Shown one piece after another: positions 18,716 through 35,723 of a stretch of 64,000 bases of DNA. Numbering within the stretch: the first letter of the stretch is position 1; each line of letters opens with the position of its first letter. The notes below the pieces were generated by a model. It had not been told where the DNA came from, searched no databases, and saw only the letters and a list, made by a program, of their open reading frames with translations. Made by a program: the position numbers and the translations under genes. Source of the stretch: Paenibacillus riograndensis SBR5 (GTDB lineage Bacteria > Bacillota > Bacilli > Paenibacillales > Paenibacillaceae); contig NZ_LN831776.1 in the NCBI RefSeq assembly GCF_000981585.1, positions 1,255,001 to 1,319,000 on the forward strand, read 5' to 3'.

Positions 18716-21700
18716 ACAGATTTTCAGGGTCCATGATCGCCCAGCAGATGTATACCCGGGAACGGCGTGGTGTGTACCGGGCGACAGAAGGATTCGATAC
18801 GGTAGCGAAGTCGGAGAGCCTGGACAATAATTTTGTCAAAAAAATTCTGCATCCCTTCTGTCTTTACGATGCTCCGGCAGAGCTGGCGGCACGCGGCGAG
18901 AAGAATGAGGAACTGTACCCTGCTGCGCTGCATCTGTTCCATACGGAAACAAATGATACGGTAATCGGGCAGAGCCGGTATTTGGCGGCGGATTTCACGG
19001 GTCAGCGGAGCGCTTTTTTTGCCCATAATTTCGTGGTGCCGCCCATCCGTTCGGAGGAAATTCTGGAGGGTTACGGAGACTGGCTTCATGCGGATTTTGC
19101 CGGGAGCTATGCGGGAGAGCTGGGCGGAACGCTGCCGGAGCTTTCGGCTATCCCTGTGTCACAGCGGGAGCAGAAGCCCCATCCGTTAAGTATCCTGCGC
19201 GGGCTTGGCATCACGGAGGAATTGTTCAAGACGCTGCTGCAGGCGGTGATGATCTCCGTGGCCGGCAAAAAAAAGCTGTACATAGCCCTGGACGTTCCGA
19301 TCGGAGAGCTGTCGCGGCGCGCGGTAGAGCTGACGGAGGTTCTTTTCAGGGCGCTGCCTTATGATTTCCGCCGCAGGCTGGGTGTGATCACCTATGCCAA
19401 TGAGCCGAAAAGCCGCAAATATATTCATCTGACCTTCGTGGAAAAAGGCTCGCTCCGCCCGGGCGACCGCAGCATTGAGAAGGATTTTGTATTCGATCTG
19501 GCAGCGGGCCGGGTGCTGGGTGCCGACTTTGGCGATACGCAGCAGCCGTTTGCAGAGCTGGCCTGGAAAACACTGCAAGAGCCGGAACGCGGGCTGGAGG
19601 ATTTTGCGCGTTTTGCTGACTCGCTGCTGCCCGGGGAGAGTGTGGAGCGCAAGCTGTCGCTCGCGCTGTACAATGAGCTGGCGGTATTTTATGAAATTGA
19701 GCAGGGCAATGAGAGTCTGTACACCGGGAATAAGCAGGCTGTGCTGGGCGGATTGCTGGCCTACCTGAAGCCGGAGGGTGCGCTTGAAGCACGGGTGCGG
19801 CTGAACGATATGTTCCTGGAGCGGTTTGACCGCGAATATGACCTGATCCGCCAAAAAGGCGTGCCAGTGCCGGAGATTATGGAGCGGTTTGTGGAGTATT
19901 TTGCGCTGAAGGGCCATAACTACCGGGTCAAAATCGTGGATTATTTCATTAACGGCATGCTCAATGCCCAGTCTGCGGGCCGTGAAGATGCGCTGGCAGC
20001 GGCTTACGGCATTATTGAGAGCAATGACGAGCTTAGTGCGTCTTTTTTCAAAAGAGTGCTGGCCCAGCCTGTATTCCGCCGGGCACTGCTGGAGCCTTAC
20101 ATGGAATCCCGGCTGTCTGCGGCGGCAAGCCCGGCGGATATTTTGCGTTTTGTGACACATTGGGGCCGGTTCCTGCCTGAAGCACTGCAGCAGTCTTTTG
20201 TCCGGGACACAGTGAAGGAGTATCTGCTGGAGAAGCTCCAGCAAAGTCCCAATCCGGTGGGAGAGGTAGCGGCGATCCATGATTCGGTGGATAAAGCGGA
20301 AAAGGAACGCCGCAGAGGCAGCGGTATGTATCCCGAAGTCCTGCTGCTGCTGGAGGAGCTGATGACGGCTTCGGACCGTTTCCTGCTGAACCGGGTGTCG
20401 CTGGAGGAACTGACGCAGGAGCAGCTGCTGGATATTTCTTTTTTGCGCTACCGCGATGCTGCCGACTGGCAGCCGCCGCTGGATTCCATTACCCGGCGGA
20501 AGGCGAACGCCCTCCGGGCTGCTTACCGGTGGTTCGGGGAGGAGAAGCCGACGGAGGAGATTTTTGCCGGGCTCTCGCCGAGAGAGCTCGATGATGTGCA
20601 GCTGCTCGGACGGCGCTGGCTGAAGGAATCCCGCAGTATTGAACCGTTCGAACGGCTGCCGCTGGCCTTTTATCACAGCAGTGAGCGCCAGGACGGGCCT
20701 CTGGATTATGAGACGCTTATGGAGCTGGTGAAACGCAAGGCGGGGGATAACAAGGAGACGGTCTACCGTTTCCTGGCTTGGTCGCAGGGGAATCCGCTAT
20801 TTTCCATTTCGAATAAAAAGCTGTGGCCGGGTTACCGCCGGGCCATCTTGAAGTACTTCCAGAGCAGTGACCGCGAGGCGTTCAAGAGCCGCGATTTCCG
20901 CAAAAGCTATGCCGCCGCCGCAGGTCCGGCACTGCAAAATGTCTACAACGAAGCGCGCTCCCAGCTGGCTTCGCCGCTGGCGCGGTGGGTCAGCCGCAGC
21001 CGATTTCAAATCCTGATCTCCGGCTGCATCCTGGGCATTGTGCTGATTGGCGCGATTATTGCCATCAGCCTGCTCCGGCCGGACCCTGCGGACACGGCCA
21101 AGCCGGCGGGCAGTGCACTGCCCAGCGCCACGGGCGGGGCCGGCGCGCTGGCTCCTGCCGCCGTCCGGCTGGGCGGCGGGGACACGGGCAGCGGCCTGGT
21201 GTTCACCTTTGCCGCTGCGGCTGACTGCTCCGCCTTCAAGCCGGCGGAGATCAGCGTAGTGTCCTCCGGCGATGTCACGGAGGACTACCAGGTCACGGGT
21301 ACGACCAGCAATTGCCTGGTCGCATCGGGTGAAGCGGCTGCGGGTACGGCAGCCGCTGGCCCGGACACCGGCGCGGACGCGAGTGCGCCGGTCGGGTCTG
21401 ACAGCGGCGCGGATGCCGCCGCTGGGGCAAAGGGCGCGAAGGCAAGCGCGCCCGCAGGGACTGACGGCGCCGCCGCAGGGGCGGGCGACGGAAGTGAGGA
21501 CGGCGCAGACGCAGGCGCCGTCACCCAAGGGCCCGTCGGCGGGAATGCCGGCGGGGCCACGCCTTCACCGGCAGCGGGCGGCACCGCGCCGGAAGCCCCC
21601 GGAGCCTCGGGAGCGGTGCCGGAGGCACCCGCGTACGAGGTGACCGTGCAGCTGGAGGCCGGCGCGAAGCTGGTCGCAGGCGACATGGTCATCGCCGGGG

Positions 21701-21825
21701 AGTACAAGCTGACCCTGCAGCCGGCCTCAGGCGCGGCAGCAAGCAACCCTCCGGGCGCCGGAGTGGATGCCTCTCCAAGCCCTGAGCCATCCCCCACAGC
21801 AACGGGGGATACAACAACCGAATGA
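18712..21825 (+). CDS. GTPase-associated protein 1-like membrane protein (GAP1-N2 type)
   Basis: A 1037-residue protein. The N-terminal 270 residues (QQMYTRERRGVYRATEGFDTVAKS, DNNFVKKILHPFCLYDAP) match the pattern I know for 'GTPase-associated protein 1, N-terminal domain type 2'. The middle is long and helical. One membrane helix lies near 765-788 (ILISGCILGIVLIGAIIAISLL). It is followed by an outside region of about 250 residues, mostly Ala/Gly/Asp low complexity with small beta segments (YEVTVQLEAGAKLVAGDMVIAGEYKLTL). The GTG start overlaps the GTPase stop by four bases. Whether it regulates the GTPase, despite the family name, is not proven. It is the last gene of the locus; a strong terminator follows. 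Confidence 0.75.
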   Translation: MNRFSGSMIAQQMYTRERRGVYRATEGFDTVAKSESLDNNFVKKILHPFCLYDAPAELAARGEKNEELYPAALHLFHTETNDTVIGQSRYLAADFTGQRSAFFAHNFVVPPIRSEEILEGYGDWLHADFAGSYAGELGGTLPELSAIPVSQREQKPHPLSILRGLGITEELFKTLLQAVMISVAGKKKLYIALDVPIGELSRRAVELTEVLFRALPYDFRRRLGVITYANEPKSRKYIHLTFVEKGSLRPGDRSIEKDFVFDLAAGRVLGADFGDTQQPFAELAWKTLQEPERGLEDFARFADSLLPGESVERKLSLALYNELAVFYEIEQGNESLYTGNKQAVLGGLLAYLKPEGALEARVRLNDMFLERFDREYDLIRQKGVPVPEIMERFVEYFALKGHNYRVKIVDYFINGMLNAQSAGREDALAAAYGIIESNDELSASFFKRVLAQPVFRRALLEPYMESRLSAAASPADILRFVTHWGRFLPEALQQSFVRDTVKEYLLEKLQQSPNPVGEVAAIHDSVDKAEKERRRGSGMYPEVLLLLEELMTASDRFLLNRVSLEELTQEQLLDISFLRYRDAADWQPPLDSITRRKANALRAAYRWFGEEKPTEEIFAGLSPRELDDVQLLGRRWLKESRSIEPFERLPLAFYHSSERQDGPLDYETLMELVKRKAGDNKETVYRFLAWSQGNPLFSISNKKLWPGYRRAILKYFQSSDREAFKSRDFRKSYAAAAGPALQNVYNEARSQLASPLARWVSRSRFQILISGCILGIVLIGAIIAISLLRPDPADTAKPAGSALPSATGGAGALAPAAVRLGGGDTGSGLVFTFAAAADCSAFKPAEISVVSSGDVTEDYQVTGTTSNCLVASGEAAAGTAAAGPDTGADASAPVGSDSGADAAAGAKGAKASAPAGTDGAAAGAGDGSEDGADAGAVTQGPVGGNAGGATPSPAAGGTAPEAPGASGAVPEAPAYEVTVQLEAGAKLVAGDMVIAGEYKLTLQPASGAAASNPPGAGVDASPSPEPSPTATGDTTTE

Positions 21826-22027: not shown

Positions 22028-22160
22028 CGCAGAGTGCTATAGCCTCGTTTGAGTTTGTTTTGGATTGGGGAAGTATAGCCTCTACTTTATTGTGCTTCAG
22101 AATCATACAGAGTCGGGAAGTAGCTTAGTGCTAATCGTTTGAAGGACAAACTTGTCTAGA

Positions 22161-22643
22161 AACAACGGCAGAAATGCCGTTGTTAGGCGCACCGAGTCTA
22201 GAAATGTTAGAAACAACGGCAGAAATGCCGTTGTTAGGCGCACCGAGTCTAGAAATGTTAGAAACAACAGCAGAAATGCCGTTGTTAGGCGCACCGAGTC
22301 TAGAAATGTTGGAAACAACGGCAGAAATGCCGTTGTTGTGCACGCCGAGTCTGGAAATGTTGGAAACAACGGCAGAAATGCCGTTGTTAGGCGCACCGAG
22401 TCTAGAAATGTTAGAAACAACGGCAGAAAAGCCGTTGTTAGGCGCACTGAGTCTGGAACTGTTGGAAACAACGGCAGAAATGCCGTTGTTAGGCGCACCG
22501 AGTCTAGAAATGTTAGAAACAACGGTAGAAATGCCGTTGTTGTGCACGCCGAGTCTAGAAATGTTAGAAACAACGGCAGAAATGCCGTTGTTGTGCGCAC
22601 CGAGGCCGAAACTGGTGGATACAACGGCAGAAATACCGTTGTT
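22161..22643. repeat. ten-copy 51-bp tandem array of hairpins
   Basis: Hairpins with arms AACAACGGCA / TGCCGTTGTT and a GAAA loop begin at 22161 and recur every 51 bp through 22620. The 27-bp spacers are near identical (GGCGCACCGAGTCTAGAAAT). Single-base changes occur in several copies. Because 51 is a multiple of three and stop codons are lacking, long artificial ORFs of 17-residue repeats appear on both strands. This is not CRISPR, since the spacers do not vary. Confidence 0.9.
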
Positions 22644-22766
22644 ACCGCCGCTGCTATAAGGTTGCTGTTAACAGGAATTTCTAAGTTGAAAGTTACCTAA
22701 TTACTGCACGCCCTCAACGATTGCCGCATAGACACATTATCTGGATAGCCGCCTAACACTTGTTGT

Positions 22767-23030
22767 ATAAGTCCCAACTACCAATATACCAGCCAACGGT
22801 TTCTGTATAGTCCCAACTGCCCTGACAACGATCCAACAGTTGCCGGCCCGACACTCGATTAAGTCCCAACTACCAGTATACCAGCCAACGGTTTCTGTAT
22901 AGTCCCAACTGCCCTGACAACGATCCAATATTCGCTGCCCCATCGTTCGTTAAGTCCCAACTATCCTTATACTAGCCAACAGTTGCTGTATATTCTCAAC
23001 AGTCCGTACAAATGATCCGACGGCTGCTGA
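22767..23030 (+). repeat. imperfect 90-bp tandem repeat
   Basis: GTCCCAACT recurs at 22771, 22810, 22863, 22902 and 22953, alternating 39 and about 52 bp. A second motif, CCAACGGTT or CCAACAGTT, is interleaved with the same rhythm. The longest identical block is about 60 bp, covering ACCAGCCAACGGTTTCTGTA and flanks. From 23031 to 23383 I see only AT- and GC-mixed non-coding sequence leading to the riboswitch. Confidence 0.7.
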
Positions 23031-23383
23031 ACTGCTAGTCACAAGGTGCTTGTTACAAGCTGCTCCTCACAAGGTGCTGCTCTGCATTGACGGTTATGGC
23101 TGGGAGTCGTTGGATTTTTTCACTATTACTGTGGATGGACATTCATGCCGCCCATTGGCGGCACTTCAGACGATGCAATCCCGGAGAAGGCCCCCAATTT
23201 GGCTTCGCCAAATTCGAGGCTTCCATAACCATGTTGTATGAATCGGACATCGTTATTTCAGGATGGAATAATAGCTGGAGAGGGTGGAGTACTTTTTGCA
23301 CCCGCTAAGAAACAGCTTCTCTATAGACATACAAGGGAATACTAGATATGATTATGGATATTAAAATTTAATAGTTAAGAGAG

Positions 23384-23555
23384 AGGTGCCGGTTCGATGC
23401 GTAGCATCAGAAATCGGCTTAAAAGGGAAGCACGGTGCAAATCCGGCGCGGTCCCGCCACTGTAAATGCGGAGCGGCTCTTAGAGCGGCCACTGTCCGGC
23501 TGTAAGGATGGGAAGGCCAAGAGCAGCGATGAGGCATAAGCCAGGAGACCTGCCT
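23384..23555 (+). promoter_or_regulatory. cobalamin riboswitch
   Basis: The conserved elements occur in order: GGTGCC near 23385, AAAAGGGAAGC, GGTGCAAATCCG, GCGGTCCCGCCACTGTAA, and AAGCCAGGAGACCTGCC at the 3' end. This is the AdoCbl-type aptamer. It is followed about 110 bases later by a terminator and then by the SLH/DUF4430 surface protein, so cobalamin should switch that gene off. Confidence 0.95.
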
Positions 23556-23661
23556 TTTTCGTGAACGTTTCTATTCTTCGTGGGGTAAGAATGCGGAACA
23601 TATGCAAATGGATGAAGTCTGGAGCTTCGAGCACCGCAGCCTTCCAATTTGTATTCTTCCC

Positions 23662-23692
23662 GGCCGCCCTGAACAAGGGCGGTCTTTATGTT
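23662..23692 (+). terminator. expression-platform terminator of the cobalamin riboswitch
   Basis: CCGCCCT pairs with AGGGCGG around GAACA, then TCTTTATGTT. It lies between the aptamer and the ribosome site of the surface protein, the usual place for transcriptional control. Confidence 0.75.
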
Positions 23693-23755
23693 GTCCCGGC
23701 TGTCCTCTGCAAAGCAGTACAAGCATTTATTTTATGACAAGGAAAGAGGTTGACG

Positions 23756-26700
23756 ATGAAGACATTTTATTCTGCCAAGTCTTTTGTGCTTGGTCTGGTC
23801 TTATTGCTGGTAATTTCGGTTACGGGTACCGCGGTGGTTCCGGCGGGACAGGCTTTTGCCGCAGCGGAAGCCACTGTTAACACAGGCACGGACAGTGTCA
23901 CGGACGCAGTATATGCTGCGGATACTTTTGCGGAAGGAAAAGCTGGCGCTTCCTTGGCTGCAGCGGATAACGGGGGACAGGTAACTGTCTCGCAGGCAAC
24001 GTATTCGGCTGCAGAATATATACTCAGCGGCGGCGTAACATCGGAGTGGCAGGCGATCGGGCTGGCCCAGGCGGGCTACCGGGTACCGGACAGCTACGTC
24101 CAGTCATTAGCGAAAAAAGTACAGACAGCGGGAGGCAGCTTCCCGAATGTGACGGATTATGCGCGGATTGTGCTGGCTGTGCGGGCGGTCGGCGGCGATC
24201 CGGCGAATTTTGCCGGCAGCGGTTCTGAAGCGGGCTTCAATCTGCTGGAGCGCATCTATAACAGCGACAATATCAGCGGCCAGCCGCTGAATGCGCCAGT
24301 CTACGCGCTGCTCGCGCTGGACTCCGGCAGCTACACGATTCCCGGTGACGCCAAATGGAACCAGACGTCGCTGCTGAGCGAAATTCTGTCCAAGCAAAAT
24401 AGCGATGGCGGGTTTGCTTTGTTCACGGGGGCGAGCGATCCGGATATGACGGCCATAGTCCTGACCGCACTCGCTGCCCACAAGAATGACCCTGCTGTGG
24501 CAACAGCGGGACAAAAAGCAGTAGCCTGGCTGGCAGCCAAGCAGGACAGCAGCGGCGGCTACGGAGACAGCAGTGAAAGTGCGGCCCAGGCCATAATCGG
24601 TCTGTCCTCCTTTGGTGTAGACCCAGCCAGCGGCGAGTTTACTAAAAATGAAACAGGCTTGCTGAATCGGCTGCTGAGCTTCAGACTGGCCAGTGGAGCT
24701 TTTGCTCATAACCAGGGCGGCAGCGCCAATGCGCTGGCTACCGAGCAAGGCCTGCAGGCCCTGGTGGCCTACAATCTGTTCAGCGGTGGTACGAACGGCA
24801 AGCTGTATGACTTTTCGAAGCCGGTAGCGCAGAACCCTCTCGTCTATGTGCCGCTCACGATTGAAGGGCCTGAGCAGACGCTGGGCCAAGGCAGCGCCTA
24901 CGCTGGGAACGTACTCGAAGCACTGGAAAAAGTAGCCGCAGCGAACAGTCTGCCGATTACGAATCCTTCCGGCGCTTATGTTACTGGCATTGGCAGCATT
25001 TATGCCGGAGCTACCGGCGGCTATGACGGCTGGATGTACGCCGTGTCTCGCGGCGGGGAATGGGCCAGCGTTGATGTAGGTATGAAAGACTTCAAGCTGA
25101 AGGAGTCTGACCGGGTACTGGTTTATTATGCGGGCAGCGCTACGCAGCTTGTCGATAAAGTGGCCCTTTCCAACGCACAGCCAAGAGAGGGTGAAGCTTT
25201 TACCGTCACAGTCACCCAAAAAACATGGGTATGGGATGGCTCCGCTTCCAACCCGGTAACTTCAAGAGCCGCCGGTGTGCAGGTGACGATTGGTGGCAAG
25301 ACGGCAACAACAGATAAAGACGGTAAAGCCGAGTTTCCAGAGGGCTTCGCTGCAGAAGACTACACACTTGCTGTTACAGGATACGTTGCAGAGAAGGCGC
25401 CCAAGATTGCAAAATATACACAGACGCTTAAGGTAGCCCCTCTCAATGTAAAAGCCACAGTATCGGTCGAAGGTCCGCAAGGCCCTATCGCCGAAGGCAC
25501 ACTGGAAGCGTCTGACGCGCTGGACGCCCTCAAGAAGCTGGCGGCATCCGGCAATATTCCGCTGGACATCACAGAGTCTTCTTTTGGCAGCTATGTCTCG
25601 GGCATCAATGGAATCCAGAGCGGAACATATGACGGGTATTGGAGCTTTGTGGTTTCCCGCGGCGGGGAGTGGATTTATCCGTCTGTAGGGATGGGAGCCT
25701 TCGTCCTTCAGCCTTCCGATCATGTGCTGGTCTATTACGGCGGGGGAGCTACCCAGGTTGTCAACTCCGTAACGCTCTCCGCTGCCCAGCCTAAACCGGG
25801 CGAAGCGTTCACAGTAAACGTTGCCCAGAAGCAGTGGGTATGGAACGATAAGACATATACCTCTGATCCGGTGGTTACACCAGCAGCAGGCGTACAAGTG
25901 ACCATTGGCAGCACAACCGTAACAACGGATCAAAAGGGCGCAGCTACCATCGATAACGGCTTGCCTGCGGGTGCGTATAAGATTGCCGTGACGGGATATG
26001 TTGCGGACAGCACGCCGAAGATCGTCCGCTACACGCAGCCGCTGACTATTTCTGATCCGGTAGTGGTGCCTCAGCCGGCATCGGCAACGATTTCGGTTAT
26101 CGGCGACAGTGCTAAAGGGACTATTCTGTCCAGCACCACAGTAGCTCTAAATGCCGGAGAAACAGCGTATAGTCTGCTGATCCGCCAGCTGGGAAGCCGG
26201 GTGACTGCGACAACCTCCGGTGGAAGCATGTATGTCGTTGCTATCGATGGCCTGAAAGAGTTTGACCGGGGGCCAAAAAGCGGCTGGAAGTATTCCGTCA
26301 ATGGCAGCGATCCTGGATTCAGTGCCGGGGATTACAAATTGAACAATGGGGATGTGCTTGTCTGGTACTATACGACAGATTATGATATTCCTTCGGCAGG
26401 TACAGGCGGTCTCTCCGGAAACACAGGAAGCACGGGAGGTGCGGGAAGCGTCGGCATCGCAGTTGACAACACCCTCCCGCTGAACCAGGTGGGACAGACG
26501 ACAGCTGTTACGAATTCAGGTGCACCCATGACAGCGTCTGAGGCGGCAGCTTTGGGTCAAAAATTAACGGCCAACACGGCAGCCTTCGAACAGGAAGTTA
26601 CTTCAGGTGCGGGAGCGGCTTTGAAGGACAGCGGCGGCGAGGTGCAGCTGCTGATTCCGGCCGGGGCAGTCTCCGGAACAGTGAAGATCAGCATGAAGGA

Positions 26701-28372
26701 GAGCAGCTCCAGCCGTGGCGAACTGGTGTCGGGTCTATATACGTTCGGGCCGGACGGGACAAAATTTGTGAAGCCGGTTGATCTTTCCATCACAGTTCCG
26801 GTAAAATCCGGAAATCCGGCCAACCTGGCCTTGGCTTGGCTTGATCCGGCTACAGGCCGCTGGATTCCGGTTCCTTCCGTTCTGGATGCCAAAACGGGTA
26901 TCATTACCGGCAAAATCAGCCATTTTACTGATTACGCAGTAGTCGACCGCAGCAAATGGGAGCCGCAGCCGGAGAAATTGAAGAGCGATATTGCTGCTAC
27001 CGCGAAAGGGATAACGGCAGCAGAAGAGCTAAGTGATTGGCAGGCTGTCGGGCTGGCCCGCTCGGGTCATGCAGTGCCGGCTGCTTACCTGGAAGGGGTG
27101 AAGGAGCAGCTGTCAGCCAGCAAGGGCCAGCTCCGCAAGGTTACGGACTATGAGCGTCTGGTCCTGGGTGTGGCTGCTGCAGGTGCAGATCCGCAGAACT
27201 TTGGCGGCTATAACCTGATTGAAAAAATCTATAACAATGACAACATGACCAGCCAAGGCAGCAACGGTCTGATTTTTGCCCTGATCGCCCTGGACAGCGG
27301 CTCCTATACGGTGCCTTCGGGTGCCAAGTGGACCAAAGAACGTCTGGTTCAGGCCCTGCTGGAGGTTCAAAGCAAGGACGGCGGCTTCCCGCTGACCTCA
27401 GGCGGAGCAGCTGATCCCGATATCACTGCTATGGCGGTTACCGCGCTTTCAGCTCACGCCAGTCAGACAACGGTTGCAGCAGCTGTTGACAAAGCCATTG
27501 CCTGGCTGTCGCAGCAGCAGCAGGAAGACGGCGGCTTCAAGCAGGCGAATGTAGAAAACAGTGAGAGCACAGCGCAGGTCATCATTGCCCTGGCTGCAGC
27601 GGGAATCGGTCCGAATGACTCACGGTTTGTCAAAACCAAAGGCGGGTTGCTCAGCCACCTGGCTTCCTTCCGTCAAGCGGACGGCGGCTATGCCCATACA
27701 CAGGGACAGCCGGCTAACAGCGTAGCCACCGAGCAGGCGCTGCTGGCCCTGACCGCTTATAACCGTTACTTGACGGGCGAAGCGAATCTTTTCAGCATTT
27801 CGCCTACCGGTGTAAATGGTGGAGTCGTGTTCACCGATGAGAATCTGATTTCGCCCTGGGCGCTGGAAGCCGTGCATCAGGCATACGGCAAGAAGCTGAT
27901 GGAGGGCATCAGCGGGAACAGTCTGGTTTTTGCACCGAAGCAGAAGATTACCCGGGCGGAATTTGCCGCCCTGCTGCTGAGGCTGACCCATAACGAGCCG
28001 TCTGTGGCTAACAGTGCTCCGGTATTCAGCGACGTCAAGACCGGCACATGGTATTATGGAGTAGTGCGGAAAGCGAAAGAGCTCGGCATTGCCGATGGAA
28101 TTACGGACACAACCTTTAATCCGAACGGAGTCATTTCCCGCCAGGATATGGCTGTCATGATTTCAAGAGCACTAAAGCTGGAAAATACAGCTTCTGCGGC
28201 AGCTCCGCAAGCTGCGAAGTTTACTGACGAAGGACGGATCAGCAGCTATGCCGTATCCGCTGTCCGTACAGTTACGGAGCTCGGTTACATGACCGGATTC
28301 GGCGGAACCTTTGACCCGTCGTCCGCTGTGACCAGGGAAATGGCCGCAGTGGTGGCGGTAAGACTGCCATAA
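23756..28372 (+). CDS. SLH-anchored surface protein with intrinsic-factor-like barrels and DUF4430 domains
   Basis: A 1538-residue exported protein. Signal peptide 1-35. A helical barrel of the terpenoid-cyclase/prenyltransferase type spans about 80-345 (SDGGFALFTGASDPDMTAI, SGGYGDSSESAAQAI). DUF4430 domains lie near 362-463, 565-663 and 777-880, the first two followed by Ig-like segments (GVQVTIGGKTATTDKDGKAE). A ZU5-like domain spans 960-1060 and a second barrel 1077-1345. Three SLH repeats (1358-1538, e.g. ITRAEFAALLLRL) tether it to the wall. Barrel plus DUF4430 is the make-up of animal intrinsic factor and transcobalamin. With the cobalamin riboswitch upstream, it is probably a B12- or corrinoid-binding surface receptor. 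ATG 23756 follows AAAGAGG; the TTG six bases earlier is less well placed. Confidence 0.85.
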   Translation: MKTFYSAKSFVLGLVLLLVISVTGTAVVPAGQAFAAAEATVNTGTDSVTDAVYAADTFAEGKAGASLAAADNGGQVTVSQATYSAAEYILSGGVTSEWQAIGLAQAGYRVPDSYVQSLAKKVQTAGGSFPNVTDYARIVLAVRAVGGDPANFAGSGSEAGFNLLERIYNSDNISGQPLNAPVYALLALDSGSYTIPGDAKWNQTSLLSEILSKQNSDGGFALFTGASDPDMTAIVLTALAAHKNDPAVATAGQKAVAWLAAKQDSSGGYGDSSESAAQAIIGLSSFGVDPASGEFTKNETGLLNRLLSFRLASGAFAHNQGGSANALATEQGLQALVAYNLFSGGTNGKLYDFSKPVAQNPLVYVPLTIEGPEQTLGQGSAYAGNVLEALEKVAAANSLPITNPSGAYVTGIGSIYAGATGGYDGWMYAVSRGGEWASVDVGMKDFKLKESDRVLVYYAGSATQLVDKVALSNAQPREGEAFTVTVTQKTWVWDGSASNPVTSRAAGVQVTIGGKTATTDKDGKAEFPEGFAAEDYTLAVTGYVAEKAPKIAKYTQTLKVAPLNVKATVSVEGPQGPIAEGTLEASDALDALKKLAASGNIPLDITESSFGSYVSGINGIQSGTYDGYWSFVVSRGGEWIYPSVGMGAFVLQPSDHVLVYYGGGATQVVNSVTLSAAQPKPGEAFTVNVAQKQWVWNDKTYTSDPVVTPAAGVQVTIGSTTVTTDQKGAATIDNGLPAGAYKIAVTGYVADSTPKIVRYTQPLTISDPVVVPQPASATISVIGDSAKGTILSSTTVALNAGETAYSLLIRQLGSRVTATTSGGSMYVVAIDGLKEFDRGPKSGWKYSVNGSDPGFSAGDYKLNNGDVLVWYYTTDYDIPSAGTGGLSGNTGSTGGAGSVGIAVDNTLPLNQVGQTTAVTNSGAPMTASEAAALGQKLTANTAAFEQEVTSGAGAALKDSGGEVQLLIPAGAVSGTVKISMKESSSSRGELVSGLYTFGPDGTKFVKPVDLSITVPVKSGNPANLALAWLDPATGRWIPVPSVLDAKTGIITGKISHFTDYAVVDRSKWEPQPEKLKSDIAATAKGITAAEELSDWQAVGLARSGHAVPAAYLEGVKEQLSASKGQLRKVTDYERLVLGVAAAGADPQNFGGYNLIEKIYNNDNMTSQGSNGLIFALIALDSGSYTVPSGAKWTKERLVQALLEVQSKDGGFPLTSGGAADPDITAMAVTALSAHASQTTVAAAVDKAIAWLSQQQQEDGGFKQANVENSESTAQVIIALAAAGIGPNDSRFVKTKGGLLSHLASFRQADGGYAHTQGQPANSVATEQALLALTAYNRYLTGEANLFSISPTGVNGGVVFTDENLISPWALEAVHQAYGKKLMEGISGNSLVFAPKQKITRAEFAALLLRLTHNEPSVANSAPVFSDVKTGTWYYGVVRKAKELGIADGITDTTFNPNGVISRQDMAVMISRALKLENTASAAAPQAAKFTDEGRISSYAVSAVRTVTELGYMTGFGGTFDPSSAVTREMAAVVAVRLP

Positions 28373-28503
28373 TCATGCGGTTGTGGCAGTAAGACACATA
28401 AACATCCTGGTGTGGCGGTAGGAAAACATGAACCGTACTCTGGTGGCAGTAAGACACCATAAGCATGCTGATGTGGCAGTAAGACTAACATAATCATGCG
28501 GTT
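28352..28503 (+). repeat. 30-bp tandem repeats grown from the 3' end of the surface-protein gene
   Basis: GTGGCGGTAAGACTGCCATA at the last codons of the surface gene (28352) is repeated as GTGG(C)(A/G)GTA-type units at 28383, 28412, 28443 and 28473. The period is 29-31 bp, with CATAATCATGCGG at both ends. The gene's stop codon lies in the first unit. Confidence 0.7.
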
Positions 28504-28827
28504 TTGAACCGCTGTTTGATTCAAGGCTGGCCCTTCAAAGGGCCTAAGTGCCTGGTCCGGCCGGACTTGCCTTCTATTTTTAAGAGGGTCTGTAGTCTTG
28601 ACTGTATTGGGTGCGACTAAAGCGGCCACTTTATGCGTTGAACTCATTTGGCTGCACATTGTATATTTAGGTAAACTTACATGTAGTAATAGAGGCGATT
28701 CTGCTATTTGTAACTGTTGAAGATACAACTATATAAGTTAAGTTAGTAAAATGAAGAAGGGATGCGGATTTATCCGAAAGCTTTCCCTTTTCATTGAAAC
28801 TGTATGAAGCTCAAATTAGGCTAGCAG

Positions 28828-29016
28828 GCAATCAATTGCACTTTATACAGTAGATGATCTCCAAATCAGCGGAAAAATGGAATCTATTGCACTCTGTACA
28901 GCAGATTCAGGCGAAAAAGGCGCTTTTGACTCCAAATCAAGAAATCTCTGCACGAAATGCAGCAGAATGCGATTTACCGCAGACTGCTCAGTTTTCTATT
29001 GTTGTACAAAGTGCAA
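28828..29016. repeat. four-motif palindromic element, family beta
   Basis: Motif centres: TGCACTTTATACA (28843), TGCACTCTGTACA (28894), TGCACGAAATGCA (28955), TGTACAAAGTGCA (29009). Spacing is 51, 61 and 54 bp. It lies in the 1.27-kb gap between the surface-protein and lipoprotein genes. A half copy of the CTATATAAGTT terminal sequence is at 28725. No gene is seen from 28504 to 29640. Confidence 0.65.
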
Positions 29017-29094
29017 TCAAGCAAAAAGTGTATGAGTTGAACTGGAGAACTTGAAAGCTTGGGAAGCAATGAAGCTCATAAGGAACTGAAGCGA

Positions 29095-29277
29095 AGTGGA
29101 AAAAGTAAAACTAAATTGCTGAAATCCAGGCTACAGAAGGTTTTAGTGGGATTTTGTACACCTAATTCATGCCTATTCATCTCATATGGCCGCTTTCAGC
29201 CGGATTAATGGTACTTTTTCCAAGATAGGCTGTGCCATAAGGCCGAATGAGCCCGATTAGTGATCCTTTTTCCACTA
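29095..29277. repeat. four-motif palindromic element, family alpha, one motif decayed
   Basis: GGAAAAAGT at 29098, a decayed GGATTTTGT at 29149, CTTTTTCC near 29214 and CCTTTTTCC at 29265. Centre spacing is 51, 64 and 52 bp. It follows the family-beta element directly, with about 80 bp between them. Confidence 0.55.
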
Positions 29278-29289
29278 ACGGTGACTGCC

Positions 29290-29540
29290 CTCTTCATCGG
29301 GTTTACAAGTGCTGGCAGTAGCGGGAGTGCGTTTGGATTATCCTGTGGCTGACAACTCTGCCTTCGTCATGCCTGAGTATGGGCTGGGAGCGTGTGGGTT
29401 TGCAGTACCCGTCCATTTCAGTTGCGGCTTCTCTGTCCACAGGTTAGGCGGGCGGAGACTGTGCCGTTTCACCACTAATCATATTGCCAAAAGAACGGAA
29501 CGGGGGAGCAGGTGCAGCCCCGTTCCTTTCCCTTTTTTGT
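29290..29540 (+). promoter_or_regulatory. possible structured leader with terminator before the DUF4430 lipoprotein
   Basis: GGAACGGGG (29497) pairs with CCCCGTTCC (29518) and is followed by a TTTCCCTTTTTT tract, about 100 bases before the lipoprotein start. The 200 bases before it are GC-richer than the surroundings and non-coding. A terminator placed between intergenic DNA and a gene suggests attenuation. It could instead simply end upstream transcription. The cobalamin aptamer consensus is absent. Confidence 0.4.
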
Positions 29541-29640
29541 CAGATCAGAAAGATAATTTGAGGTTCCTGCAAAGTAGCAGTATCAGCTTCCATGCAAAAG
29601 CCTCACTTTGAGGGGTTATTTATCGGAGGTGTCCTTGTTT

Positions 29641-30579
29641 ATGTCCAAGTCTATCCAGCAATGGCTGTTCACTCCGCTGCTGCTTCTGTCCGCAGCGGTG
29701 CTGCTCGCCGGCTGCGCAGCCGGCGCAGACACGGCCGGCGGGGCGCAGAGCCCCGCCGCGGGCACGGCTGCGGTGCAGAGCCCGCAGCCCAAGACCCCGG
29801 CGTCCCCTCTCCCCGGGGACGCCGCAACCCCCGTGCCTTCCGCCGCTGCGGACGGCACGGCCCCGCCGTCCGGCGCGGAACCCGCTGCCGGGACGCAAAA
29901 GGGGGCGGCTGTGTCTGCGCCGCCCGCCTCATCCGGCGCGGCTGCAAAGCCCGCGCCTTCCGCCGCTGCCGTAACGGAGCCAGCTTCCGTTACGGCCAGC
30001 GCAGCCCCGGCCACGGCGAAGGCCTCGGCCGGGCCAGCCAAGCCTGCTGCCGGCGCGAAGCCGACCGCCAGCACGAAGCCTGCAGCCGGCGCGAAGCCGA
30101 CCGCCAGCACGAAGCCGACAGCCGGTGCGCAGCCGGCAGCCGGCACCAAACCGGCGGCGACAGCGAAGCCGGCCGCCACGGCGCAAGCCCCGGCAGCCGC
30201 TTCAGCCGCCCCGGCGAAGCCTGCCGGGGCCGTAAATACCGTCACGCTCTCCATTGTCGGAGACAAGGAGCACGGGACGATTTTTGCGGCGGCGGCCGTT
30301 GACATCAAGAGCGGCGAGAGTGCGCTGGAGCTGCTGAAGCGCATTACCCGCAGCAATAAAATTCAAATGGAATACCAGGGAGCCAAAAGCTTCGCTTATG
30401 TAGAAGGAATCGATAATCTGTATGAATTTGACCAAGGCCCGGAGAGCGGCTGGATCTACAAGGTCAACGGTGAAGTTCCCGGCAAAGGGGCAGGCAGCTA
30501 CATACTGCAGCCGGGCGATACCGTGGAGTGGCTGTATACGCTGGATATGGGCAAGGATGTAGGGGCGGAAGTGCAATGA
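29641..30579 (+). CDS. DUF4430 lipoprotein, probable B12-binding component
   Basis: A 312-residue lipoprotein. The signal peptide ends in the lipobox LLAGC with Cys25. Residues 26-197 are an Ala/Pro/Thr/Lys-rich linker with short repeats (KPTASTKPAAGA) that would span the wall. Residues 198-312 are one DUF4430 domain (VTLSIVGDKEHGTIFAAAAV, YEFDQGPESGWIYKVNGE) close in sequence to the third such domain of the surface protein. CGGAGGTG lies about ten bases before ATG 29641. The stop overlaps the EcfT start (ATGA), so it is co-translated with the transporter. It probably hands ligand from the surface protein to the membrane S component; that step is inference. Confidence 0.8.
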   Translation: MSKSIQQWLFTPLLLLSAAVLLAGCAAGADTAGGAQSPAAGTAAVQSPQPKTPASPLPGDAATPVPSAAADGTAPPSGAEPAAGTQKGAAVSAPPASSGAAAKPAPSAAAVTEPASVTASAAPATAKASAGPAKPAAGAKPTASTKPAAGAKPTASTKPTAGAQPAAGTKPAATAKPAATAQAPAAASAAPAKPAGAVNTVTLSIVGDKEHGTIFAAAAVDIKSGESALELLKRITRSNKIQMEYQGAKSFAYVEGIDNLYEFDQGPESGWIYKVNGEVPGKGAGSYILQPGDTVEWLYTLDMGKDVGAEVQ

Positions 30580-31520
30580 GCAGCGGCTTCCGTGCAATGC
30601 ATCCCTCGGCGGCGCTGCTCTACTATGCCGGGCTGCTGTTGTTCGCCACCCTGCTGTTTCATCCCCTGTTCCTGGCTACAGAGCTTGCCGGACTGATCCT
30701 TCTGCTGGTGCTGCAGGGACAGGGGCGGCAGCTGCTGCGCGGGCTCCCTTTTTTTCTGCTGATGGCCGTTTCGGTAGCCGTGCTGAATCCCTTGTTTTCA
30801 CACAGGGGTGCGCATATTCTGTTTTATTTTATGGACCAGCCGGTTACACTGGAAGCCGTTTTGTACGGGCTGATGATGATGGCGGTCCTGTTGACTGTTT
30901 GTATTCTGTTCATTTCTTACAGCTACACGGTCACCACGGATAAATTCATGTATCTGTTCGCTGCGGCTGCGCCCCGGGCCACCCTGCTGACGCTGATGGC
31001 GCTGCGCTTTGTGCCTTTGTTCCAGCGGCGTCTGCGCCAGATCACCATGATCCAGCGGATTCGGGGAGTGGATGCAGGCAAGGGCAGCGTGCGCTCCAGA
31101 ATGAGGGACGGGATGACGCTGGTGAAGGTGCTGCTGACCTGGTCGCTGGAGGAAGCGCTGCAGACGGCAGACTCGATGAAAGCACGGGGCTACGGCATCC
31201 GCAAACGGAGTGTATACGGGATTTACAGGCTGGACCTGCAGGATAAGGCCATTTTGCTGCTGCTCGCGGCTAGCGGGCTGGTCCCGCTGTTTTTTTGGAT
31301 GAAAGGGTACGGGGTGCTGGAGATTTATCCGCGGATGAAGCCGATGCACTTCGGCTGGGCCGATGCCGCGATGTATGCAAGCTTCTGCTTGTTCGTGCTG
31401 ACGCCGCCGGCCCTCGAAGGAAAGGAGAAATGGTTATGGAGATCCTCGCGGCGGAGCGTCTATCCTTCAGCTATCCCGAGGAAGACAGGGACTCGCTTCA
31501 TGAGCTCTCATTTACGGTAG
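30576..31520 (+). CDS. ecfT: ECF transporter T component
   Basis: A 314-residue membrane protein with five or so hydrophobic segments and the EcfT/CbiQ coupling motifs: RIRGVDAGKG near residue 170 and SMKARGYG near 203, which dock on the two ATPase domains. Its start overlaps the lipoprotein stop by four bases. The last 28 codons overlap the start of the ATPase gene in another frame by 85 bases, an unusually long overlap; the tail WRSSRRSVYPSAIPRKTG looks like out-of-frame ATPase sequence. The protein may have acquired this tail by loss of an earlier stop. Confidence 0.85.
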   Translation: MSSGFRAMHPSAALLYYAGLLLFATLLFHPLFLATELAGLILLLVLQGQGRQLLRGLPFFLLMAVSVAVLNPLFSHRGAHILFYFMDQPVTLEAVLYGLMMMAVLLTVCILFISYSYTVTTDKFMYLFAAAAPRATLLTLMALRFVPLFQRRLRQITMIQRIRGVDAGKGSVRSRMRDGMTLVKVLLTWSLEEALQTADSMKARGYGIRKRSVYGIYRLDLQDKAILLLLAASGLVPLFFWMKGYGVLEIYPRMKPMHFGWADAAMYASFCLFVLTPPALEGKEKWLWRSSRRSVYPSAIPRKTGTRFMSSHLR

Positions 31521-33118
31521 AGGAAGGTGAGTTTGTCGTGCTTCTCGGCCCTTCAGGCGGCGGCAAAACCACGCTCCTGCGCCATCTGAAGCGCGAGCTT
31601 GCGCCCGTGGGCAAGGCTGGCGGGAAGATTGCTTACAAGGGACAGCCGCTATCCGGTCTGCCTGCCGAGCTTGCTGCCGCAGAAATCGGGATGGTGTTCC
31701 AGAACCCCGATGCACAGATCGTGATGGATACCGTGTGGCATGAGCTGGCCTTTTCAATGGAAAATATGGGCTATCCGCCAGCGGTTATGCGCAGCAGGCT
31801 GGCGGAGATCGCCGGCTTGTTCGGACTGGAGCCGCTGCTGTACAAGTCGGTGCACGAGCTCTCCGGCGGGCAAAAGCAGCTGCTGAACCTGGCCTCGGTG
31901 CTGATGCTGCAACCTAAGCTCCTGCTGCTGGACGAGCCGACCTCGCAGCTTGATCCGGTCGCCGCGCGGGAGTTCCTCCAGACGTTGCACCGGCTGAATG
32001 AAGAGATGTCCGTGACGGTCATCATCAGCGAGCACCGCCTGGAGGAGGTACTGCCGCTGGCTGACCGGGTGCTGCTGCTGGAAGAGGGAGAGCTGCGGTT
32101 CCAGGGGACGCCCCGTGACTTTGTACGCGGGGCGGGGCTTGCGCTTCACGCTCCGCATATGGCGTATTTGCCCACTGCTGCGCGGTTGTTCCTTGCCCTT
32201 GAGCCGGATGCGGTTCAAGCGCCCCGCGAGGCCATCCCGCTGACCGTGCGGGAAGGCAAGCGCTGGCTGCATTCCTTGGCTGAAAGAGGGCCAGGCATGG
32301 GGGAGGCGGCAGCTGACACAGGCGCTTCCCGCCTCTCCGCTCCTGTCACTTCATCCGACCTGCTGCTCAGCTGCCGGGAAGTGACCTTCCGCTACAGCAA
32401 GGACGGGGCAGAGGTGCTTAAGAAGCTGTCGCTGTCCCTGTACCGGGGAGAGCTGCTGGCCGTGATGGGCGGGAATGGAGCCGGAAAATCAACGCTGCTG
32501 CATATCCTGAACGGCCTGCTTAAGCCCCAGCGCGGCAAGGTAACCCTTGCTAAGGGGGAGACAAGCGGCTTCCTGGCCCAGAATCCGCTGCTCTACTTCA
32601 GCTATGACACGGTTCAGGAGGAGCTGCAGCAGATGGCGGAGTATGCCGGATTGTCCAAGGAAGAGGCGGACCGGGAAATTGCCCGGCTCCTGGCAATCTT
32701 CCAGCTCGAAGACCTTCTGCTTAGCCATCCGCATGATATCAGCGGCGGGCAGCAGCAGAAGCTGGCGCTCGCCATGGTGATGCTGCTGGGTCCCGGTATT
32801 TTGCTGCTGGACGAGCCGACCAAGGGACTTGATCCGGGGGCCAAAGAACGGCTCGCAGCGTTGCTCGGAGATTTGCGGAGGCAGGGAGTCAGTATCCTGC
32901 TTGTGACGCATGATGTCGAGTTTGCCGCGAGGTATGCCTCGCGCTGCGCGATGCTGTTTGACGGCGGCATCACGTCGGAAGGGACGCCGGCGGAATTTTT
33001 CAGCAGCAACTATTTCTATACAACGGCAGTCAACCGCATGGCCAGAGAGCTGCTGCCGCAAGCCTTAACGATAGAGGATGTGATGAACGCGTGGTCCGCT
33101 TTCGCTTCCCGCTCCTGA
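31436..33118 (+). CDS. fused two-domain ECF transporter ATPase
   Basis: A 560-residue fusion of two ABC ATPase domains, corresponding to EcfA1 and EcfA2. Domain 1 has Walker A GPSGGGKTT, signature LSGGQKQ and Walker B LLLLDEPTSQLDP. Domain 2 has GGNGAGKST, ISGGQQQK and ILLLDEPTKGLDP. A linker near residues 275-300 joins them. ATG 31436 is preferred over ATG 31430 because GGAG sits eight bases before it. The 3' end overlaps the S-component start. The fused form with a dedicated T and S indicates a group-I-like ECF importer rather than the shared group-II set. Confidence 0.9.
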   Translation: MEILAAERLSFSYPEEDRDSLHELSFTVEEGEFVVLLGPSGGGKTTLLRHLKRELAPVGKAGGKIAYKGQPLSGLPAELAAAEIGMVFQNPDAQIVMDTVWHELAFSMENMGYPPAVMRSRLAEIAGLFGLEPLLYKSVHELSGGQKQLLNLASVLMLQPKLLLLDEPTSQLDPVAAREFLQTLHRLNEEMSVTVIISEHRLEEVLPLADRVLLLEEGELRFQGTPRDFVRGAGLALHAPHMAYLPTAARLFLALEPDAVQAPREAIPLTVREGKRWLHSLAERGPGMGEAAADTGASRLSAPVTSSDLLLSCREVTFRYSKDGAEVLKKLSLSLYRGELLAVMGGNGAGKSTLLHILNGLLKPQRGKVTLAKGETSGFLAQNPLLYFSYDTVQEELQQMAEYAGLSKEEADREIARLLAIFQLEDLLLSHPHDISGGQQQKLALAMVMLLGPGILLLDEPTKGLDPGAKERLAALLGDLRRQGVSILLVTHDVEFAARYASRCAMLFDGGITSEGTPAEFFSSNYFYTTAVNRMARELLPQALTIEDVMNAWSAFASRS

Positions 33119-33777
33119 TTGCCCTCGGGCTGTTTGTGGCCGGCCTTGCGCTGACCTCAGCGCTGAAGGACCGCCATTATATGCTGCTCAGCCTTGTGCT
33201 GCTGGCGGTAGCCCTGCTGCCGCTGTTCATCCGTCTGGAACGGCGTCCGCTTGAATCCAGAGAACTGGTGCTGCTGGCGGTGTTGTCCGCTGTCGCTGCG
33301 GTCAGCCGGATTCCTTTTGCCGCCTTGCCCAGTGTAAAGCCGGTATCGGCCATTGTTATTCTTTCGGCTTATGTTTTTGGGGCGGAAGCCGGGTTCATCA
33401 TCGGCGCGGTGGCCGCGCTGGTGTCCAATATTTACTTTGGGCAGGGACCCTGGACGCCTTGGCAAATGTTCGCCTGGGGCATGGTCGGTCTGACCGCTGG
33501 CTGGCTGCGGAATACCTGGTGGATGAAAAAAAAGGGCGGAATGCTTGCATTCGGCTTTGTCTGGGGATTTTTATTCGGCTGGATTATGAATATCTGGTAT
33601 CTGATCAGCCTGCCGGATGCGTTCAGCTGGGGGCTCGTGGCTGCCGCGTATGCGTCAAGCTTTTATCTCGATCTCGCCCATGCCTTGTCCAATGTCTTTT
33701 TCCTGGCTGTTCTGGCCGGAGGCTGGACCAAAGTGCTGAAGCGATTCCGCAAAAAATACGGCTTGCTGCAGGAGTGA
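33091..33777 (+). CDS. ECF transporter S component, probable cobalamin specificity
   Basis: A 228-residue hydrophobic protein with about six membrane segments. It has the ECF S-component layout and the local pattern SRIPFAALPSVKPVSAIVILSAYVFGAEAGFIIGAVAALVSN, which resembles CbrT-like and related S components. The start is GTG at 33091, inside the ATPase gene (28-base overlap), with GAGG upstream at rather long spacing. Translation is probably coupled. Substrate is inferred: DUF4430 proteins in the same operon and a cobalamin riboswitch upstream of the associated surface gene point to vitamin B12 or a corrinoid precursor. Confidence 0.8.
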   Translation: MVRFRFPLLIALGLFVAGLALTSALKDRHYMLLSLVLLAVALLPLFIRLERRPLESRELVLLAVLSAVAAVSRIPFAALPSVKPVSAIVILSAYVFGAEAGFIIGAVAALVSNIYFGQGPWTPWQMFAWGMVGLTAGWLRNTWWMKKKGGMLAFGFVWGFLFGWIMNIWYLISLPDAFSWGLVAAAYASSFYLDLAHALSNVFFLAVLAGGWTKVLKRFRKKYGLLQE

Positions 33778-34187: not shown

Positions 34188-35723
34188 ATGAAGAGGACGG
34201 GAACAGAACAGATGAGACATCTTAAGGTAAGACATAAAATGCTATTGCTGGTAACGGTCTTTATAATTATGCTTATTGGGACCGGAGCTGTCGGCATCAT
34301 CACCACCAAGCAAATGGCAACAGGGTCCGGTAAGTCCTACAGCCAAAATTTGCAGCCGATGTATCTGATAACAGAAATACGCGGAAACAACCGGGCAATT
34401 GAGTCTTTGCTCCTGGAAAGTCTGATTACCAAAAACGATGGCAAAAGCCAAGAGCATACGGCAGCTATCGGAGAGTATATCAACATCAACAATGAGCTGA
34501 TCACTCAGCTAAAGGCCATATCCTTCAGCAACAAAGACGTATCGAATAAAATAAATGAGTATCTGTCCCTGCTTCCGGATTACCGGGCACAGCGTGACAG
34601 CATTGTCCAGCTGGCCGGCAAGAAGCTCAAAAATGAAGGTTATCAGATCTTCTCGGGGAGCGTGTTCAGTAAATCGCGGGAGATCATGGTGAGTCTGCTT
34701 GAGGATACAGCCAAGCTGCTGGTTCAAGATGCCCGCAACAATAACGAAACTAACCAGCAAGATGCCCAAAGATCGTTGACCTTGATCATTTTGCTGATTA
34801 TTGCCGCTTTGGTGCTCAGTATAGGTATCAGCATCCTCATTTCGAGGATGATTACGAAACCGCTTAAGGAGCTGCAGGTGCTGATGAAGGATGCAGAGTC
34901 AGGGAATCTCACCGCTTCCGCTGCCTATTCGTCGAGGGACGAGACTGGTCAGCTCCACCGCTCGTTCAATGCAATGATTCAGAGCCTGAAGACTATGATG
35001 CAAGGAGTGTCGGAGAGCACCGGATTGCTGTCTGCCTCTTCACAGGAGATGAGCGCCAGTGCGGAGCAGGCTGCACAAGCTTCGCAATTCATTGCCGAAT
35101 CCTCCAGTGCAATTGCCGCCGGTATCGGGGTGCAGGTGGAGACGGTTGACCGGGCGGCACATTCCGTGCAGGCGATGGCGGAGGAGATTGCCGCCGCCCG
35201 GCAGAGCACTCATGAAATATCCGGACTGATGGCGGCTGCTGCTGCTTCGGCTGATCATGGAGCTGCTGCAGTGGAGGTTATCCTTGCACAGCTGAAGGAG
35301 ATTGCAGAAGCAACGGGGAAAAGCTCGCTGCAGATCACAGACCTTCTAACGCAGATCCAGAGCCAGACCGAAGAGGCCGTGCAATCCATAATACGGGATT
35401 CACAGCTGGTTTCGCAGGGGCTGTCACAGAGCGGGGCCGTACCGCGGGTGTTCGCGGAGATTCAGGAATCCATTCGGACCGCTGCACGGCAGACGGCGGA
35501 GCTCCGCGAGGCTATCGGGCATGTGTCCGGCCAAGCACTTACAGTGTCGCAGGCAATGGGGCAGGCAAGTGAAGCGTCCCGTAAAAGTGCGGAAGATGTG
35601 CAGAACTTAAGTAGAGCCAGCGAAGAGCAAGTGACCGCAATGGGCGAAATGCTGATGTCGTCCAGGTACCTGGCGGCACTAGCCGAGAATTTGCACATGA
35701 ATTTGGCTCGCTTCAAACTCTAG
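34188..35723 (+). CDS. chemoreceptor-like protein lacking the signalling tip
   Basis: A 511-residue protein with two membrane segments (LLLVTVFIIMLIGTGAVGII and LTLIILLIIAALVLSIGISIL) around an outside four-helix-type sensor of about 150 residues. A HAMP domain (KPLKELQVLMKDAESGNLTA) and a helical cytoplasmic region follow. That region has the adaptation-helix pattern at both ends, but the highly conserved tip that binds CheA and CheW (the E-A-A-I-E-A-A-R-A-G stretch) is absent. VILAQLKEIAEATGKSSLQI passes straight from the descending to the ascending helix, about 70 residues short. It probably cannot control CheA in the usual way. Start choice between 34188 and ATG 34212 is uncertain, as both have poor ribosome spacing. 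Confidence 0.8.
   Translation: MKRTGTEQMRHLKVRHKMLLLVTVFIIMLIGTGAVGIITTKQMATGSGKSYSQNLQPMYLITEIRGNNRAIESLLLESLITKNDGKSQEHTAAIGEYININNELITQLKAISFSNKDVSNKINEYLSLLPDYRAQRDSIVQLAGKKLKNEGYQIFSGSVFSKSREIMVSLLEDTAKLLVQDARNNNETNQQDAQRSLTLIILLIIAALVLSIGISILISRMITKPLKELQVLMKDAESGNLTASAAYSSRDETGQLHRSFNAMIQSLKTMMQGVSESTGLLSASSQEMSASAEQAAQASQFIAESSSAIAAGIGVQVETVDRAAHSVQAMAEEIAAARQSTHEISGLMAAAAASADHGAAAVEVILAQLKEIAEATGKSSLQITDLLTQIQSQTEEAVQSIIRDSQLVSQGLSQSGAVPRVFAEIQESIRTAARQTAELREAIGHVSGQALTVSQAMGQASEASRKSAEDVQNLSRASEEQVTAMGEMLMSSRYLAALAENLHMNLARFKL

Follow-up and report, generated by a model that had tools for sequence, protein, structure and literature searches.

A cobalamin riboswitch-led locus of Paenibacillus riograndensis with DUF4430 surface proteins and a CbrT-type importer: a predicted corrinoid acquisition system

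Gene and domain content of the locus

The window analyzed here is a stretch of 64,000 nucleotides (bases 1255001-1319000) from the single-contig 7.92 Mb genome of Paenibacillus riograndensis SBR5. On its forward strand, at window positions 23367-33777 (all coordinates below are on this strand and, unless noted, of the window), lies a locus headed by a cobalamin riboswitch, with five reading frames, each open, that encode in order a cell-wall surface protein, a lipoprotein, and the EcfT, EcfAA and S components of an energy-coupling factor (ECF) importer. We propose that this locus is very probably a corrinoid-controlled system for corrinoid acquisition. An earlier reading of the sequence alone had taken it for a B12 acquisition route, and this is supported by the CbrT-type S component, the modeled structure of a helical barrel with its DUF4430 domain, and the linkage of DUF4430, S component and riboswitch in other genomes.

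The three importer genes adjoin one another. EcfT, the transmembrane coupling protein (314 aa, 30576-31520; PF02361, E = 1.2e-9), contains two xRG motifs, which presumably have their usual role in this family; EcfAA (31430-33118; TIGR04520 above cut-off) carries two sets of Walker A, SGGQ and Walker B motifs in one chain of two ABC ATPase domains, both halves intact; and the S component (228 aa, 33091-33777) matches PF07155/PF12822. The fused ATPase and the S component had both been recognized in the sequence-only reading. With EcfT, EcfAA and S encoded in one cluster, the importer is an ECF transporter of group I. A phmmer search of the PDB with the S component retrieves CbrT (6fnp) at E = 1.6e-13, with the next S component at 0.003, and a profile of 31 S components retrieves 6fnp at 1.9e-34 (profile positions 54-229), followed by RibU at 6.2e-5 and 4hzu at 8.6e-4 and by no further PDB sequence at E<=10. 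Six residues (G97, G101, N113, G119, Q125 and H197, in the numbering of the window protein) are identical in 32 of 32 aligned S components, CbrT included. In this comparison, which is with solved structures and not a tree of all S components, the protein groups with a proven B12 transporter and with no other vitamin's solved S component, an outcome that favors the sequence-only reading, for which a clade with another proven vitamin would have been a refutation; it is closest to CbrT among the solved S components, and cobalamin uptake is predicted. CbrT of Lactobacillus delbrueckii, predicted by Rodionov et al. in 2009 (as cited in PMC5997447), is described as an experimentally proven transporter of cobalamin and cobinamide (Santos et al. 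2018, PMC5997447). The window S component belongs to the same family, is 30% identical to CbrT and has the invariant residues in common with it, but CbrT is described as using an ECF module common to other S components (group II; PMC5997447), whereas the window genes form a group I cluster, the S component has an N-terminal extension of about 50 residues with two hydrophobic stretches outside the CbrT match, and extracellular DUF4430 proteins are encoded alongside.

The PF02361 match makes EcfT a CbiQ-type protein, and elsewhere in the genome another cobalamin riboswitch precedes a locus with cbiM, cbiN, cbiQ and an ABC ATPase gene; both facts would fit a cobalt importer under cobalamin control. 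Such a function is very unlikely for the window operon: none of its proteins matches CbiM or CbiN in Pfam, its S component is of the CbrT type (E = 1.9e-34), and the cbiM-N-Q and ATPase genes stand together at their own locus. Cobalt import is set aside on these points. The same host locus also encodes CbiX, CbiJ, CbiC, CbiD, CbiG, a CbiA-type protein and tetrapyrrole methylases, and since these are corrin-synthesis genes the window system would serve salvage in a likely producer. An unlikely alternative is that the importer mainly carries cobinamide or another corrinoid precursor, or non-cobalamin corrinoids, in preference to B12 itself; it gains from these corrin-ring genes and from the transport of both cobalamin and cobinamide described for CbrT (PMC5997447). 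The present evidence fits each of these forms alike. Cobalamin riboswitches sense the finished cofactor and not the cargo of the importer. A third cobalamin riboswitch of the host (L003; genome positions 668180-668408, reverse strand) precedes genes for a thiamine-binding protein (PF01910) and a xylose-isomerase-like protein (PF01261).

The surface protein (1538 aa, 23756-28372) begins with an ATG at 23756, has an N-terminus that by eye resembles a signal peptide, and contains no cysteine. In Pfam it matches DUF4430 (PF14478) in three stretches (E = 2.3e-26, 92.5 bits against a gathering score of 23.8) as well as toroid and squalene-cyclase families. Pfam, the sequence and structure models together resolve it into a first helical barrel of the α/α toroid type (23978-24790), to which DUF4430 domain 1 (24836-25135; PF14478 match at 24911-25132, 28.7 bits; AF2 model) is immediately C-terminal, the order found in intrinsic factor; DUF4430 domain 2 (25448-25740, approximate limits taken from the sequence), one of the three PF14478 stretches, which lies outside the three individual PF14478 matches listed for the genome (two in the surface protein and one in the lipoprotein); DUF4430 domain 3 (26189-26374; PF14478, 62 bits; second AF2 model); a ZU5-like β domain (26609-26791) with a PF00791 match below cut-off (E = 0.0063) and a Foldseek match to ankyrin ZU5; a second helical barrel (26969-27775; PF00432, E = 3.9e-13; helices 294-562 of the second AF2 model); and three S-layer homology (SLH) repeats, a cell-wall anchor, at approximately 27842-28369 (PF00395, E = 2e-28, three stretches), residues 1368-1534 matching the S-layer protein Sap. 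The helical barrels, DUF4430 and SLH parts that had been claimed for this protein are thus two, three and three in number. An SHFT motif (26918-26929, residue 1055) stands at the end of the ZU5-like region and recurs in the consensus of relatives. ZU5/GAIN domains are able to self-cleave at sites of this type, and if the motif were used in this way, cleavage would split the DUF4430 arms from the barrel-SLH part.

The lipoprotein (312 aa, 29641-30579) has a lipobox, LLAGC, whose cysteine at position 25 is its only one, a DUF4430 domain (E = 4.7e-19, 69 bits against the gathering score of 23.8) and a tether of 175 residues that is 38% alanine and 17% proline; as had been noticed from the sequence, its gene overlaps ecfT, by the four bases ATGA. 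Between the surface protein and lipoprotein genes lies a spacer of 1268 bases (28373-29640) made up partly of dispersed repeats. Among the corresponding loci of 23 relatives, 21 have a spacer of -1 to 172 bases and the remaining two have 329 and 468 bases, measured to the longest reading frame, by which measure the window has 1235 bases. Two segments of the window spacer, within 28793-29278 and each some 240 bases long, recur at about 50 sites of the genome, with 70-87% identity in the longer matches. Because of the length and partial repeat filling of the spacer, a single transcript from the riboswitch to the S gene is not assured in this genome.

The riboswitch aptamer (RF00174, 23367-23571; cmscan, 119.7 bits against a cut-off of 31.5, E = 1.9e-29) is complete, covering model positions 1-189 of 189, in agreement with the sequence-only reading except for its start, which had been put at 23384 and is corrected to 23367. 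The terminator claimed in that reading fared less well: a putative hairpin of the expression platform is present at 23662-23684, with a 9-pair stem of which 7 pairs are G-C, followed by TTTATGTTGT, but this tail is T-poor and the leader folds no more strongly than its own shuffles (z -0.95). The terminator, plausible but weak, is the weakest element of the locus; ligand-dependent control of the gene downstream is predicted.

Linkage of DUF4430, S component and riboswitch

Comparative genomics supports a tie between DUF4430, the CbrT-type S component and the cobalamin riboswitch. In an even draw of 99 genomes from the order (Paenibacillales), 28 carry DUF4430 and 26 carry the S component, and all 26 of the S-bearing genomes also have DUF4430, at E = 1.8e-13 or better; the two genomes with DUF4430 and no S component are both marginal (23.4 and 22.9 bits). 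Fisher's test gives p = 7e-22 for this co-occurrence, relatedness being ignored. A same-strand RF00174 lies 4.7-11 kb upstream of the S gene in 24 of the 26, against an expectation of about 0.3% for a random place (these binomial figures, too, ignore relatedness). The two misses are G056, in which the locus is split over contigs and the riboswitch precedes the surface protein, and G057, with none detectable upstream; at locus L075 a search for RF00174 at E<=1 found none. The order surface protein, lipoprotein, EcfT, EcfAA, S component is conserved in nearly all loci of the order, the exceptions being the split G056 and the reduced L090.

Five genomes (G048, G077, G010, G023 and G013) encode a second protein with DUF4430 and barrel that has its own cobalamin riboswitch and no adjoining importer genes, and G089 has the same arrangement with a weak aptamer of 38.8 bits (loci L091-L095 and, for the weak aptamer, L096). 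In the window the operon is flanked by a gene with a GAP1 domain (18712-21825) and a sensory gene with 4HB_MCP/HAMP domains (34188-35723), both of which also flank L065-L068 and L070-L072. In L091-L093 the flanks are the same, a GAP1-type gene before and a sensory HAMP-type gene after, so that there the riboswitch and surface protein stand free of the importer at a site equivalent to that of the window.

In an even draw of 299 genomes from the phylum, three of them from the window's genus, DUF4430 is found in 95. For loci outside the order, one genome per family was chosen for its DUF4430, and 40 of 45 families were kept (the genomes of the dropped families are G112, G217, G341, G362 and G371); because of this choice the set is silent on S components without DUF4430. 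Hidden Markov models (HMMs) built from the order detect the S component in 34 of these 40 loci, EcfT in 31 and EcfAA in 30, and three of the six S-less loci (L110, L116 and L133) are cut by contig ends. The barrel HMM matches 29 of 40, four of which (L109, L110, L112 and L134) are in its own alignment. An upstream RF00174 is present in 29 of 40; among the 11 loci that lack one, five have less than 5 kb of upstream sequence on the contig (G123, G168, G210, G222 and G285), and six are real misses at the sensitivity of the RF00174 upstream scan (G318, G360, G146, G155, G159 and G250). A further set of named loci, the best 80 of 598 stretches picked by similarity of the S component, has DUF4430 in 74 and the barrel in 67; owing to that selection and to some species shared with the order set, it is neither unbiased nor independent. 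Its six loci without DUF4430 comprise four on short or cut contigs (L140, L194, L208 and L209) and two from lactobacilli with less than 14 kb in hand (L210 and L211). An Rfam scan of seven hand-picked named loci found an upstream same-strand cobalamin riboswitch in four (L153, L168, L197 and L207), and none in L204, the sequence of which starts 500 bases before the first gene, or in the lactobacilli L186 and L211.

Some of these loci bear directly on whether the surface proteins share the importer's ligand. It could be argued that the importer carries B12 and that the DUF4430 and barrel proteins bind another ligand or scaffold the wall, being linked to the riboswitch only through the operon. 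Toroid and β-grasp folds do serve many ligands, the nearest sequence and fold matches of the barrel are terpene cyclases, and a reviewer of an earlier study (Burroughs et al. 2007, PMC1796856) raised the diversity of ligands. Such a division of labor is nevertheless improbable, given that in the six genomes above, one with a weak aptamer, the riboswitch leads a DUF4430 and barrel protein beside which no importer genes stand. Furthermore, among 60 S-bearing loci two, L090 (596 aa) and L126 (737 aa), encode the S component and a barrel in a single reading frame. As judged from their sequences, the two parts are separated by a hydrophobic stretch resembling a signal peptide, which would place the barrel outside the cell, and the chain may be cleaved at that stretch. 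Other loci, L099, L100 and L101 in the window's class and L118 further off, retain only a short S component beside a DUF4430 lipoprotein, with no EcfT, fused ATPase or barrel, and in L100 a riboswitch lies 449 bases upstream of the DUF4430 match. These arrangements are consistent with a corrinoid as the ligand of the extracellular proteins.

Several variants of the locus are seen besides. Tandem pairs of cobalamin riboswitches precede the DUF4430 gene in L197, L168, G180, G187, G350, G128, G325 and G274. EcfAA and the S component are joined in a single chain of 831-886 residues in L089, L125, L132 and L137. Outside the order a stand-alone barrel gene accompanies DUF4430 genes in many operons (L117, L123, L124, L127, L128, L134, L138 and others), and the barrel and DUF4430 are therefore often separate chains. 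Metagenome bins labeled Deltaproteobacteria, Armatimonadetes and Thermoplasmatota contain the S component as well (L194, L200 and L217), which may reflect transfer or mis-binning.

Structural relationship to the intrinsic factor family

The AF2 model of barrel 1 with DUF4430 domain 1 has a predicted local distance difference test score (pLDDT) of 89.5 and a predicted template modeling score (pTM) of 0.86, and in a Foldseek search with it every match at ranks 1-15 is a transcobalamin, a haptocorrin or an intrinsic factor (E = 2.1e-9 to 2.1e-6), a result in favor of the sequence-only reading, on which this structural comparison had been suggested as a check. As in these animal proteins, a helical barrel is followed by a β-grasp domain of the DUF4430 type. 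The window protein differs from them in being a wall-anchored, multidomain protein with several DUF4430 copies and another angle between the domains in the model, and its barrel and DUF4430 unit has no match to the animal proteins in the PDB at the sequence level. Disulfide-bonded cysteines are a feature of the transcobalamin and intrinsic factor family, and the window surface protein, with 0 cysteines, has none of them. Further down the same Foldseek list (rank 49, E = 8.8e-3), a match of 96 residues is to PDB 3u7z, a 'putative metal binding protein' of Ruminococcus gnavus, which may be a solved bacterial domain of the DUF4430 type.

Some observations weigh against the proposed corrinoid acquisition. 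The modeled orientation of the two domains appears to differ from that in the animal proteins, with a two-domain root-mean-square deviation of about 19 A in what is a ligand-free prediction. Taken by itself, the barrel resembles terpene cyclases more closely in structure comparison, with intrinsic factor and transcobalamin lower in the list. At the locus itself, control of the importer by the riboswitch is not assured in this genome. A link between barrel and intrinsic factor from sequence alone was also looked for and not found, the barrel profile (A4) retrieving no B12 binder among the 23 PDB sequences at E<=1. The same profile matches class II terpene cyclases in the PDB with E-values down to 3.8e-15, which raises the question of whether the barrels are extracellular enzymes of that kind. 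This is extremely unlikely, since they are exported and wall-anchored and adjoin DUF4430 domains and a corrinoid importer. A class II cyclase requires a terpene substrate and, to our knowledge, toroid repeat motifs are common to many non-enzymes. Terpene-cyclase activity is set aside on this context and not by assay.

The second AF2 model, which spans DUF4430 domain 3, the β domains and barrel 2 (pLDDT 86.8, pTM 0.75), was considered as a further unit of the same kind and is rejected as such: its Foldseek list is headed by terpene cyclases, ankyrin ZU5 and prenyltransferases, and transcobalamin first appears at rank 27. For this reason a single intrinsic factor-like unit, barrel 1 with DUF4430 domain 1, is claimed.

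Proposed route of corrinoid uptake and relation to earlier work

We propose that, when cellular cobalamin is low, the riboswitch would permit expression of the surface protein, and probably of the whole operon in most relatives. Anchored in the wall through its SLH repeats, the surface protein would hold corrinoids between the helical barrel and DUF4430 in the manner of transcobalamin and intrinsic factor; the DUF4430 domain of the tethered lipoprotein would take up the ligand near the membrane and deliver it to the CbrT-type S component; and the dedicated EcfT-EcfAA motor would turn the S component over, with release of the corrinoid inside. Opening of the riboswitch and import by the ECF transporter are supported by evidence from their families. 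We infer the capture at the wall and the hand-over by the lipoprotein to the S component, together with corrinoid binding by each DUF4430 and barrel domain, the order of transfer and binding of the ligand in sandwich fashion. For ECF transporters it is the membrane S component that is described as the substrate-binding protein (PMC5997447). The wider proposal, of an ECF importer that depends on extracellular corrinoid binders of the intrinsic factor type, anchored in the wall or by lipid and in some species fused to the S component, as a multi-stage wall relay found across the phylum and near the ancestor of animal intrinsic factor, we regard as evenly balanced between being right and being wrong.

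The core idea of B12 scavenging is already published as a prediction. Burroughs, Balaji, Iyer and Aravind (2007; PMC1796856) described exported proteins with toroid and SLBB domains that occur in predicted operons with a second SLBB protein and CbiO/CbiQ genes; they proposed that operons of this transcobalamin-like SLBB clade in Gram-positive bacteria scavenge B12, and that animal transcobalamin-type proteins were obtained from Gram-positive bacteria. The sequence-only reading had spoken of a bacterial parallel to intrinsic factor; the Foldseek likeness upholds the resemblance, but 'parallel' needs qualification, the idea having been published and descent of the animal proteins from Gram-positive ones proposed (PMC1796856). 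To the SLBB operons of 2007 the present analysis adds the kinship of the S component with CbrT, the fusions of barrel and S component, the riboswitch counts and the modeled structure, so that what is new here is the riboswitch linkage, the CbrT assignment, the barrel-S fusions and the modeled architecture. The words riboswitch, ECF, BioY, S-layer and Paenibacillus are all absent from the main text of PMC1796856. Among the open-licence PubMed Central matches listed, none reports experiments on B12 with a bacterial DUF4430 protein, subscription papers and preprints lying outside this scope; DUF4430 itself is named in 6 of the open-licence papers. The BtuG surface lipoproteins of Bacteroides (PMC6143338) offer a likeness in that B12 is described as being captured at the surface ahead of a membrane importer. 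Their hosts differ in having a Gram-negative outer membrane, and the two systems are likened by description, not by sequence or structure.

A 2019 survey of gut genomes (PMC6593275) describes it as an unsolved problem to identify, for many of them, the transporters of B12 and of its precursors. No worked-out account of the capture of large and scarce corrinoids by Gram-positive bacteria beyond their thick wall emerged from the literature found, and DUF4430 still bears the name of a family of unknown function. The domain is widespread in the phylum, with 95 of 299 genomes carrying it, so that what is learned from testing one system would apply to many others. If proven, the service of an ECF importer by binding proteins outside the cell would be new, and such a test would bear both on whether these importers can use external binding proteins and on a bacterial origin of intrinsic factor in animals.

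As a minor feature of the region, tandem repeats with periods of 51, 92 and 31 lie at 22157-22644 and 22768-23000, both before the riboswitch, and at 28352-28503, where the surface protein gene ends.

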